A DNA stretch of 53,407 nt from Syntrophus aciditrophicus (GCA_020726025.1 DYTH01000003.1:1-53407), one strand, 5' to 3'; numbered from the stretch's first letter, positions 302 through 4,446 are shown. The notes: generated from the letters alone by a model not told the origin. Numbers and translations: made by a program.

Positions 302-2290
302 CTACATTTCTCCTCCCGACCCGGCGAAGGAAAGGGCTTCCTCCAGCCACGTATCCATCTTCAACACCTCCCGGCGCTGACGGTAAGCGAGCCGCTGGGC
401 GGTTCTCTGCGCCTGGAAAAGCGCGATTCTGGCCAGCACGTCCACACCCGGCGTCTTTCCCTGAAGCGCCGCGGCAAGTCTTTTCCTGAGCAGGGGCGAG
501 ACAAAACGCCGGATCAATTCGTCTTCCACGCTCATGAAGGCCTGGGCGGCGCCAGGGTCTCCCTGTCTCGCGCAACGGCCGAAGAGCTGGCGGTCGATGC
601 GCCCCGATTCATGGCGCTCGGTGGCTATCACATGGAGACCACCCATCTCCGCGACGCCGTGTCCGAGCTTGATGTCGGTGCCTCGTCCGGCCATGTTCGT
701 GGAAATGGTTACCCTCCCCTTTTCACCCGCAGCGGCCACGATCCTCGCTTCCTCGCTGTGGCGGACGGCGTTGAGAAGATTATAGTCGAGACCTCTGGCG
801 GCAAGCATGAGGGCGAGTTTTTCACTGACCGTGACGCTTCTTGTTCCTACAAGCACCGGACGTCCGGTATTCCGCAGCATCTCGATTTCATCGACCACGG
901 CCTCGAACTTCTCCCGCTCCGTGGAAAATATCCGGTCGGGCATGCTTACCCTTATGCAGGGGCGATTGGTAGGAATCGTCATGACAGGGAGGCGGTAAAT
1001 ATGCCAGAACTCCGCAGATGCCTCTTTTGCGGTGCCGGTCATTCCGCTCAATTTCCTGAAAAACCGGAAAAACCTCTGGAAGCTCAGTCTCGCCAGTGTC
1101 TCGCTCGGGTCGTTCACGGTAATGCCTTCCTTTGCCTCGATCGCCTGGTGCAATCCGTGCCGCCATGTCCTGTTCGGCATCAATCTACCGGTAAACTCAT
1201 CGACAATCGCAACCTTGCCGTCCTGGACGACATACTGCTGATCCCGCTTGTAGAACTCCCTTGCCGTCAGAGCCTGCTTTACCAGTTCCTCCCGCCTGGC
1301 CGACCCGCGCCATATTCCATTGAGCATCACCGACTGTTCGTCAACCTTTCGCTCCCCCTCCTTCGTGAGCGAAATCTCCTTATATCGCTGGTTGATTAAA
1401 TAATCCCGACCGGCGTCCAGTGGCTCAACGAGCCGGTGGGTTATTTCGCACGCCTCGACCAGCGAGGAGTTCTTCTGAGGACGGGAGATGATAAGCGGGG
1501 TTACCGCCTCGTCGATCAGGACGCTGTCCGCCTCATCGACAATGGCCGTGTCCAGCCCCCGCAGCACCGTATTGTCGGCGGCTGTCGGGGGACGCAGAAG
1601 CTGGCGGAGCTGCCGTCTTGAAGCGTTGTGCAGCTCTCCGATTATCAGCCTGTCCCGGAGAAAATCGGCCACCAGTTCCTTGAGCGTCGTATAAACAACA
1701 CCTTTCTCATAATTGGCACGCCTATCCTTCGGCTCCATCTGCGAGGTCACACAGCCTACGGAAACACCGCAGAACGAATAAAAGTCCTTCATCTCCAAGG
1801 CATCCCGGTCGGCAAGATAGTCGTTCACCGTGACAAAATGGAAGGGTCGCCCCGTCCAGGCGGCCAGCACCGCCGGCAGACAGGCGGTAAGACTCTTGCC
1901 TTCACCGGTGGCCATCTCGGCAAGGTAGCCGTGGTAGAGGGCGAGCGCCCCCATCACCTGAACCGGATAGGGGAGCATGCCGGTGGTTCGGTTGGACGCC
2001 TCGATCATATACGCCAGGGCCTCGGGCAAAAGCTGGTCAACCTCCTTCCCCCGGCGGCGAAACTCTGTTTGAAGTTCGCCGAGGTTCCCCCTCAGTCTGC
2101 TGTCGGATAAATAAACAAGCTTCCTGGCGTCTTCACTAATTTTGTCCGCATCTGCCTTCAACAAACGGGCGACGGAGGGACGTCGTTTGTTCCACCCCTC
2201 AAACCCGTGGATAAGCGCGTCCATCCCCTGATGGAGCTTTTCAGGAATCACAATGCGGGTACGGTGATAATCCTGGGACGGGACTCTCAT
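302..2290 (-). CDS. SecA-like ATPase (paralogue, C-terminally shortened)
   Basis: Motifs MATGEGKSLTA (Walker A), VTVNDYLADRDA, DEADSVLIDEA (Walker B), TNMAGRGTDIKLG, GRCARQGDPGAA. Start MRVPSQDYH chosen because its ATG overlaps the upstream stop (TGATG). About 662 aa; no C-terminal Cys-rich zinc tail. Confidence 0.93.
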   Translation of the reverse strand: MRVPSQDYHRTRIVIPEKLHQGMDALIHGFEGWNKRRPSVARLLKADADKISEDARKLVYLSDSRLRGNLGELQTEFRRRGKEVDQLLPEALAYMIEASNRTTGMLPYPVQVMGALALYHGYLAEMATGEGKSLTACLPAVLAAWTGRPFHFVTVNDYLADRDALEMKDFYSFCGVSVGCVTSQMEPKDRRANYEKGVVYTTLKELVADFLRDRLIIGELHNASRRQLRQLLRPPTAADNTVLRGLDTAIVDEADSVLIDEAVTPLIISRPQKNSSLVEACEITHRLVEPLDAGRDYLINQRYKEISLTKEGERKVDEQSVMLNGIWRGSARREELVKQALTAREFYKRDQQYVVQDGKVAIVDEFTGRLMPNRTWRHGLHQAIEAKEGITVNDPSETLARLSFQRFFRFFRKLSGMTGTAKEASAEFWHIYRLPVMTIPTNRPCIRVSMPDRIFSTEREKFEAVVDEIEMLRNTGRPVLVGTRSVTVSEKLALMLAARGLDYNLLNAVRHSEEARIVAAAGEKGRVTISTNMAGRGTDIKLGHGVAEMGGLHVIATERHESGRIDRQLFGRCARQGDPGAAQAFMSVEDELIRRFVSPLLRKRLAAALQGKTPGVDVLARIALFQAQRTAQRLAYRQRREVLKMDTWLEEALSFAGSGGEM

Positions 2291-4446
2291 CAAAGCTGGT
2301 ACCTCTTCTGCAACATCTGGCGGAACAGATGGCCCCACTGGAAAAGCAGCGGCCGTGGCTTGAGGGTGAAACGGAGTTTCCCCGACATTCCATGCAGCAG
2401 TAGTACTTCCGGCGTCGGCACGATATCGGCATAAATCTGGAAAAAAGGCTCGGAGGCCCGGGTACCGGTTTCGTCTTTCACGGAGACGGCAAGGTCCCCG
2501 CCTCCCCGCCATCCCAGCGCGGCGGAGGGCAATTTCTCCTGCCGATAAGGAATGATCCGGAATTTCGATACGGCAAGATTTGTCTCGCCCTGCCCGTATA
2601 TCCTCACCTCGACTTTGCTAATACCGCCGACGAAAAGTTCCGCAGCCTCATCCTGGGAGACAACCGCCGAAAAGCGGAAGGAGCGCTCATTAACGATCTG
2701 TCCTATCACGCCCCCCCTGTCCAGCCAGGAACCGACCAGGTCGTTTATCCTGGGGGCCACCCAGATTCCCGCTTCTCTTGCCCTTACGGTGAGAGAAGCC
2801 CGTTGGAGTTCCAGATCCTTAAGTTTCGCGTCAATGGACTCAAGACGTTTTTGAAGCGGCTCAAGATCGGCGGTTTCCTTGTTGAGCGCCTTGAGAATGA
2901 GCGCCTCAGTTTCTTTCTTTTGGCCGATTACCGCCTCAGTTTCCAGTTCGAGCTCGCGGTCATGCATCTCCAGAAGCGCCATACCGGGGCTCACCTGTCG
3001 GCCCGAAGGAACGATCACCTTTTTCAGGTAGCCGGGGGCGTCGTTCACCACCTGGACGTACTGCATCGTTTCCATCACGCCCGGGGCGCGAAATCTGTCG
3101 GGAAACGGGATAAGGGCAAGAAAAAGAACCAGAAGCGAGAGGAACCCCGCAGAAACGAGGACGGCCCTCATTCTCGTCCGGGCCAGACGGGGGTTCGTGG
3201 AAAGGTAAATGAAAAACTTGTAAAGAGGAACCACCACCCAGGTCACGACGCCGATCAGCGCCATGATCATCCCGGCGAGCAGAAACTTGTCCGCTACGAA
3301 AAAGATGATCCCCGAAAAGACGATGACCCGGTAAATACCGCTCAGAATCGCGAAGATGGTCAGATAAACGGTTTCCCTGCGCCCCTGCGCCGGGCTGAAT
3401 GACTCCTTGTAGCCGAAGGCATACCTTTCCACGAGATGGCGGAGGTGCTTCATCGCCCGCGAGCTGAGGTTAGGAATGTCAAGTAAATCCGAGAGTATGT
3501 AGTAGCCGTCAAAGCGCAGAAGCGGGTTTCCGTTGAACAGGACAGTCGAGACGGAGGCAATGAACATGATGTTGTAGGCGAGGCTGTGGAGGGTCCCCTC
3601 CCCGGAGTAGGCCCAGACAAACGTGGCGATCGCCGCCACGAAAATCTCCATGATCATTCCGGCGGCGCCGACAAGCGCCCTCTCCCAACGGCTCCGGAAG
3701 GCCCAGCTCGATGTCGCGTCCATGTACGGCAACGGGGTAAAAACCAGCAGCATCACACCCATCGTATGCACCTCTCCGCCATAGCGGCGGCACACCAGGG
3801 CATGACCGAACTCGTGAATCGTCTTGACGACGATCAGCCCCAGATACAGCAGAAAGAGGTTGTCCGGGGCAAGTATCCCCTGCACCTGATCGAAGGCCAT
3901 ATCGAAACGATCCACTACCAGCTTGATCGCCCAGCCTGTTGAAACAAGCCACAACAGCGCCCCCAGCGGCGAGATAAGCAGCCGGAAAATCGGCATCAAC
4001 TGTTTAAGGAGATTATCAGGATCGAAAAGGGGCAGCCGCATGAACAGAATACTCATGAGTTTCGACTGCATCTCCCGCTGGCGGCGCTTCCGGTAACGCT
4101 CGAAAAGCTTGGCGCTGTCCGCAGGTTTTTCGAAATGGAGAAGGTTGGCGAAATAGAGCTGGGTCAGCAACTGAATCACGTCTTCCTGTCCCGGCGCGTT
4201 GTCGGGATCCCGATTGAGGCACTCCTCCCAGACTTCCGAGACGGTACGATCCGACCGGAGCCGGATCACGAAATCGTGCGCCTCCGACCGCAGACGAAAG
4301 AACTGGTTGTTAAAGGGGTCGCGGAACATGTACCATATCTCGCCGCGAAAGCGCCTTTTGCTTACCTGGACGGACGGGTGGAGGCTGACCTTGAGATCTG
4401 CCACGCGATACCACGACTCACTGAATGTTTTTCCAGCCTTTTGCAT
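2290..4446 (-). CDS. Membrane zinc metalloprotease (M50/site-2 protease-like) with N-terminal PqqD-like domain and C-terminal HlyD-like adaptor region
   Basis: TIHEFGHALVCRRYGGEVHTMGV (HExxH), NGNPLLRFDGYYILSD (second M50 motif), multiple TM segments, N-terminal PqqD-like sequence (FNNQFFRLRSEAHDFVIRL...EDVIQLLTQLYFANLLHF), C-terminal coiled coil/beta-barrel (APGYLKKVIVPSGRQVSPGMALLEM). Start MQKAGKTF preferred over the ORF start. Confidence 0.88.
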   Translation of the reverse strand: MQKAGKTFSESWYRVADLKVSLHPSVQVSKRRFRGEIWYMFRDPFNNQFFRLRSEAHDFVIRLRSDRTVSEVWEECLNRDPDNAPGQEDVIQLLTQLYFANLLHFEKPADSAKLFERYRKRRQREMQSKLMSILFMRLPLFDPDNLLKQLMPIFRLLISPLGALLWLVSTGWAIKLVVDRFDMAFDQVQGILAPDNLFLLYLGLIVVKTIHEFGHALVCRRYGGEVHTMGVMLLVFTPLPYMDATSSWAFRSRWERALVGAAGMIMEIFVAAIATFVWAYSGEGTLHSLAYNIMFIASVSTVLFNGNPLLRFDGYYILSDLLDIPNLSSRAMKHLRHLVERYAFGYKESFSPAQGRRETVYLTIFAILSGIYRVIVFSGIIFFVADKFLLAGMIMALIGVVTWVVVPLYKFFIYLSTNPRLARTRMRAVLVSAGFLSLLVLFLALIPFPDRFRAPGVMETMQYVQVVNDAPGYLKKVIVPSGRQVSPGMALLEMHDRELELETEAVIGQKKETEALILKALNKETADLEPLQKRLESIDAKLKDLELQRASLTVRAREAGIWVAPRINDLVGSWLDRGGVIGQIVNERSFRFSAVVSQDEAAELFVGGISKVEVRIYGQGETNLAVSKFRIIPYRQEKLPSAALGWRGGGDLAVSVKDETGTRASEPFFQIYADIVPTPEVLLLHGMSGKLRFTLKPRPLLFQWGHLFRQMLQKRYQL

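Follow-up and report, generated by a model that had tools for sequence, protein, structure and literature searches.

The DNA analysed here, referred to below as the window, is the whole stretch of 53,407 nucleotides from Syntrophus aciditrophicus (GCA_020726025.1 DYTH01000003.1:1-53407). The gene under study occupies 2290-4446 on the minus strand, with an ATG at 4446 and a stop at 2290. It encodes a protein of 718 amino acids in which a PqqD-like RiPP recognition element (RRE; RiPP, ribosomally synthesized and post-translationally modified peptide), an M50 protease and an HlyD-type adaptor are joined. A previous interpretation made from the DNA sequence only (the sequence-only reading) had proposed this three-part polypeptide, and a single minus-strand open reading frame (ORF) of that composition was confirmed. 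The gene and its parts are as follows.

2290..4446, minus strand: fusion of RRE/PqqD-like domain, M50 protease and HlyD adaptor, 718 aa (profiles, models and Foldseek)
4126..4368, minus strand: RRE/PqqD-like domain, about residues 27-107 (three strands and three helices in the models; RRE structures are the top Foldseek matches)
3802..3816, minus strand: HEFGH zinc motif, residues 211-215 (H211, E212 and H215 invariant in 53 homologues)
3496..3531, minus strand: NGNPLLRFDGYY, region of residues 306-316, which includes the Asp ligand (D313, invariant in 53 homologues)
2347..3108, minus strand: adaptor region resembling HlyD/MacA, about residues 447-700 (MacA matched by Foldseek, E 6e-13)

With the fusion protein of the window, Pfam reported M50 only and no PqqD match at E < 0.1; PqqD (PF05402) was matched by 18 of its 53 homologues, the best at E 4.8e-7. 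AlphaFold modelled residues 27-105 as a domain of three strands followed by three helices, which is the topology of PqqD and the three-strand, three-helix winged helix that defines the RRE fold. The top PDB matches found by Foldseek were leader-bound RREs of lasso-peptide systems (6jx3, 5v1v and 5v1u), with probabilities of 0.99-1.00 and weak E values of 0.015-0.035. The RRE assignment takes together the topology, the match probability, what the top matches are and the Pfam matches of the homologues, and the earlier claim of a PqqD-like N-terminus holds. On the models, the N-terminal domain is an RRE-type leader-binding fold, for which leader binding itself is predicted.

The M50 family (PF02163) was matched at E 2.7e-6, just above cut-off. 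H211, E212 and H215 of HEFGH and D313 of the NGNPLLRFDGYY region were unchanged across the 53 homologues, and the protein carries the HExxH motif and downstream Asp ligand that mark M50 membership; the objection that the second motif might be missing from homologues therefore fails. Residues 447-700 resemble adaptors of the MacA/MexA type (TIGR01730 E 6e-7, besides the Foldseek match), and PF16576 was matched by 31 of the 53 homologues, placing this end of the protein with HlyD-type adaptors as the sequence-only reading had it. Between the RRE and adaptor ends lie about seven hydrophobic helices, and these together with the loop charges suggest that the RRE would be cytoplasmic and the adaptor periplasmic. 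Relatives of the fusion protein are encoded at 424 GTDB loci, the best 80 of which are mostly full-length, so the fusion of domains is not a chance event. These best 80, drawn from several phyla, are the named loci of the comparisons below. No relative was found in the viral contigs searched.

The fusion gene is the fourth of five in an operon ordered TolC, short HlyD, GAF-HlyD, RRE-M50-HlyD and truncated SecA-like ATPase. The remaining features of the locus are listed here.

7250..8944, minus strand: TolC-family outer membrane channel, first gene of the operon (PF02321 E 7.6e-30; TIGR01844 E 1.2e-26, below cut-off)
6375..7253, minus strand: short HlyD/RND-type periplasmic adaptor (PF16576 E 2.6e-17; TIGR01730 above cut-off)
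4448..6304, minus strand: single protein combining a GAF domain, a membrane segment and an HlyD-type adaptor (both PF01590 and PF16576 pass cut-off)
302..2293, minus strand: truncated SecA-like ATPase, 663 aa (SecA_DEAD E 6.7e-94; begins with an ATG at 2290 that overlaps the preceding gene's stop)
1..301, minus strand: spacer after the SecA-like gene, up to the contig end (in a sister genome a giant LEPR-XLL gene lies there, starting 268 bp past the SecA-like gene)

The genes for GAF-HlyD, M50-HlyD and SecA-like proteins were contiguous and on one strand at 65 of the 66 named loci that hold all three. Where 5.5 kb or more of upstream DNA was available (48 loci), TolC and the short HlyD were present at 38, at some of them on the other strand. 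Profile scans of the five operon genes detected no ABC, RND or MFS gene, no RiPP tailoring enzyme, and none of the daptide decarboxylase, aminotransferase or methyltransferase genes; the ABC_membrane genes of the window genome sit on other contigs. The SecA-like protein aligns with SecA residues 35-604 only. The region of SecA past residue ~604 holds the two-helix finger used with SecY, and the operon protein thus has less than the set of ATPase domains, helical wing and two-helix finger that makes up the SecA translocase. It scored under every SecA and SecA2 cut-off. Its ATPase motifs were kept in 59 homologues, mostly of 640-690 aa. A second, longer SecA homologue (open frame 847) was found on another contig of the window genome, the only genome searched for one.

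The advice of the sequence-only reading to look beyond window position 1 was apt, as a giant gene is expected there, downstream of the operon. In the sister genome the gene after the SecA-like gene is a giant ORF with the N-terminus FEMETLEPRILLSGD / MKKAQPPNQFEMETLEPRILLSGD, which carries the LEPR-XLL domain (NCBIfam NF012209) at 29.6 bits against a cut-off of 17. An orthologue of this giant, 86% identical over 1652 aligned residues, is encoded on contig C5 of the window genome, and a second LEPR-XLL ORF on contig C86; both score above the NF012209 cut-off. The window end and an end of C5 have only short inverted matches in common (GACTTTTGACGAG and CGGAATGAC, at window 1-60 and C5 ~6610-6672), and the two contigs are not joinable by shared sequence; it is as if an interspersed repeat had broken the assembly between them. 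The giant repeat proteins associated with the system have open frames of up to about 18,000-21,000 codons, and one of them contains RTX repeats (PF00353). The consensus of 44 LEPR-XLL sequences is F-x-[LVI]-E-A-L-E-P-R-[VIL]-L-L-S-A, and a strong hydrophobic segment is rare in these N-termini (KD17 >=1.6 in 4 of the 44). The giant ORFs of loci L021 (13890 end) and L025 (8931 end) also have a C-terminal tail in common, GWKV..GG..LG...GVIDR.SF..LA..Q.KKRFK.W, which is perhaps a second sorting signal.

The LEPR-XLL motif was found at 19 of the 80 named loci, or at 20 if L085 is counted, where it lies upstream of the start chosen by the script; the motif density of the 384-genome sample predicts about 0.03 for the same amount of DNA. 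LEPR-XLL was detected genome-wide in 39 of 50 genomes carrying the system. Among 384 genomes of a Verrucomicrobia class, 30 encoded a high-scoring fusion protein (above 600 bits, the next falling below 410), 33 encoded LEPR-XLL and 27 encoded both (Fisher p=2e-32, uncorrected for phylogeny). The corresponding figures for the 155 genomes of the window's own class were 11, 6 (above cut-off) and 5 (p=4e-6, likewise uncorrected). Distant M50-HlyD homologues scoring below 410 bits did not track NF012209, which occurred in 2 of 31 such genomes.

Plasmid records supply an independent source of annotation. For a Thalassospira marina plasmid it lists a LEPR-XLL protein, DUF3467, HlyD, the fusion protein, HlyD and TolC. 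A Pontibrevibacter plasmid has a LEPR-XLL protein whose leader reads LDPMEPR, DUF3467, HlyD, the fusion protein, a 'DEAD/DEAH box helicase' and HlyD, and on a Methylosinus plasmid the set consists of a giant LamG protein containing FDTLEPRVLLNAD, DUF3467, HlyD, the fusion protein, a 'prepilin peptidase', HlyD and TolC. Position and length suggest that the annotated helicase and peptidase are the SecA-like partner. In Alisedimentitalea the partner is annotated as SecA, and the annotated start of the giant is without the motif. In four plasmid loci (L160-L162 and L166) the GAF-HlyD-type gene is separated from the giant, or from the start of the operon, by a DUF3467 gene, and in L021-L023 an ORF of 118 aa that is DUF3467-like by eye occupies this position (8620-8976 in L021).

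A more distant M50-HlyD relative is encoded on an E. coli plasmid (L163, L164), with TolC and two HlyD genes, and the four come after the gene of a 4459-aa Ig-like giant; no ABC transporter or SecA-like gene was found in that stretch. This giant starts RFALESRQLFDGAA, which is LEPR-XLL-like by eye and does not score as LEPR-XLL. Variant N-terminal motifs were seen on large proteins near further distant relatives, namely LEALEQRQLLAG and LETRTLLAG (L172), VESLEQRQLLAN (L173) and VLESRIAPA (L187); among the distant relatives listed, others had no neighbour with a variant motif in the stretch covered. To judge by these N-termini, NF012209 may capture only part of the leader code.

The closest likeness to a known protein is with the daptide RRE-peptidase MpaP/DapP (NF041824), in which an RRE is fused N-terminally to an intramembrane site-2 protease, as in the fusion protein. 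Residues 46-410 matched this model at E 5e-48, with 164.1 bits against a cut-off of 300, and by profile comparison MpaP is the nearest characterized relative. The fusion protein differs in its additional C-terminal HlyD adaptor, and the system in the lack of tailoring genes in the operon and in the giant size of the associated proteins, daptide substrates being short peptides. In daptides the site-2 protease removes the leader, whose motif is ELExMEAP; leader-dependent processing was abolished by changes at L(-7) or M(-4), in a scan that tested the RRE of MpaB and not the RRE of the protease (PMC10036551). The glutamates and hydrophobic residues of ELEALEPR in LEPR-XLL are spaced as in the daptide motif (L-E-x-L-E), and with LDPMEPR of Pontibrevibacter included the common form is L-E/D-x-[ML]-E. 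The EpeP/YydH-LiaK epipeptide M50 proteases (NF058609) gave a weak match (E 3.4e-7, far below cut-off) over residues 197-332, a region that includes neither the RRE nor the HlyD part; such a protease acts on a ribosomal product that it is thought to cleave and export (PMC10885120).

As in type 1 secretion (HlyB/HlyD/TolC), the operon encodes HlyD-type adaptors and TolC and its neighbours are large, repeat-rich and partly RTX proteins, but a leader-reading protease and a SecA-like ATPase stand in place of the ABC transporter. Its last gene encodes an ATPase of SecA type with conserved motifs, as do those for SecA and the accessory SecA2, but the protein is consistently about 660-680 aa, is without the C-terminal third and is encoded with HlyD and TolC. 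The system is filed here as a variant of tripartite HlyD/TolC export, because it has no type 1 ABC transporter, its protease scores below the daptide cut-off and its ATPase has less than the full SecA domain set. LEPR-XLL itself is a named domain at NCBI, carried above cut-off by the giants beside the operon, and no published export partner for it was found in the open literature. Nor was a description of this system found in the open-access literature on PqqD/M50/HlyD/SecA, giant proteins or LEPR-XLL, subscription papers and preprints being outside this scope. The available parts of a paper on polymorphic toxins mention neither M50 nor HlyD, and those of a review of type 1 secretion do not cover the system.

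These data suggest that the conserved operon very probably serves giant surface proteins that start with a LEPR-XLL tag, and that the fusion protein is probably the inner-membrane core of an export system dedicated to them, where it would read and cut their leaders. A fuller account is put forward more tentatively: LEPR-XLL giants would leave through TolC, with no ABC transporter, by a secretion system that is powered by a truncated SecA-like ATPase and that combines a leader reader of RiPP style, an intramembrane protease and a periplasmic adaptor in one protein. Sequences and models show the domains, the intact catalytic motifs, the conserved operon and its association with LEPR-XLL genes; from these we infer that the RRE binds the leader, that the M50 domain cuts it and where, that the ATPase is the motor, and by which route the chain is exported. 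The giant would be made with the N-terminal leader F-x-[LVI]-E-x-L-E-P-R-[VIL]-L-L-S-[AG], and the LExLE part would be bound by the cytoplasmic RRE in the way that RREs bind RiPP leaders. The M50 site would then cut near the motif, perhaps directly after LEPR by analogy with daptides; recognition of LExLE and cutting near LEPR are proposed because the motif resembles the daptide leader. ATP-driven threading would probably come from the truncated SecA-like ATPase, where present, and the HlyD domain of the fusion protein and two more HlyD adaptors would pass the chain to TolC. If this is correct, the orphan LEPR-XLL tag, borne by some of the largest bacterial proteins, acquires a function, RiPP-type leader recognition is applied to proteins thousands of residues long, there is an export route without an ABC transporter, and giant-protein export in Verrucomicrobia, Planctomycetes and deltaproteobacteria becomes directly testable.

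The weakest step of this proposal is how the chain crosses the inner membrane, for which ordinary SecYEG is a possible route. The fusion protein might process LEPR-XLL leaders while the chain crosses through SecYEG, with the SecA-like protein as a targeting or unfolding partner and HlyD/TolC as the outer conduit only. The retained ATPase motifs, the longer SecA homologue elsewhere in the genome and the lack of an obvious inner-membrane channel gene in the operon are in keeping with such a route. However, the SecA-like protein ends at about SecA residue 604 and so lacks the two-helix finger region, and most LEPR-XLL N-termini are without a clear hydrophobic signal segment; this explanation is considered rather unlikely.

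It is improbable that the LEPR-XLL proteins are type 1 substrates of ABC transporters encoded elsewhere, with the M50-HlyD operon travelling alongside in another role. ABC_membrane proteins do exist elsewhere in the window genome and the RTX repeats of one giant are typical of type 1 substrates, but the operon and LEPR-XLL are adjacent and co-occur tightly, and the protease is itself fused to HlyD and located with TolC.

The sequence-only reading had coupled leader recognition, cleavage and hand-off for export in one protein, and had pointed to peptides or small proteins as substrates. The first part remains the best reading, given the RRE fold, the intact M50 site, the adaptor and the relation to daptides. 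The second was not supported, as the associated genes encode giant LEPR-XLL repeat proteins. A system that matures and exports a small ribosomal peptide, with the giant genes as bystanders, would fit relatives of the protease that act on RiPP leaders and the frequency of RREs in RiPP pathways (PMC10036551), but no RiPP tailoring enzyme is encoded in the operon, and it is the giant gene that recurs beside it with a leader-like motif. This is very improbable, and an additional small substrate is possible, no dedicated or systematic search for short ORFs having been made. That the operon is an ordinary HlyD/TolC efflux operon with a stress-related M50 protease is scarcely credible, for although its adaptors match efflux-type HlyD models, it includes no ABC, RND or MFS gene among the five and would leave the LEPR-XLL association and the SecA-like gene unexplained.

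A number of observations weigh against a dedicated LEPR-XLL export system. Operon and giant gene lie on separate contigs of the window genome, and their adjacency there was taken from the sister genome. Of the 50 carrier genomes, 11 gave no NF012209 match; some of these can be put down to assemblies in fragments and to variant motifs such as LEPRVYLS (L074). The pattern used found no motif at 32 of the 50 loci where 1 kb or more follows SecA. The co-occurrence statistics ignore phylogeny, the limit for high-scoring proteins was placed where the data showed a gap, and the resemblance between the daptide and LEPR-XLL motifs was judged by eye. The Thalassospira plasmid cluster, for which the gene table is incomplete, lists no SecA-like gene; the SecA-like motor is therefore not universal.

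Elsewhere in the window, a ParB/Spo0J-like ORF was recognized by eye at 9777-10565. At 10932-16703 there is a type IV pilin-like ORF and then three large membrane ORFs with TPR-like C-termini, again by eye.

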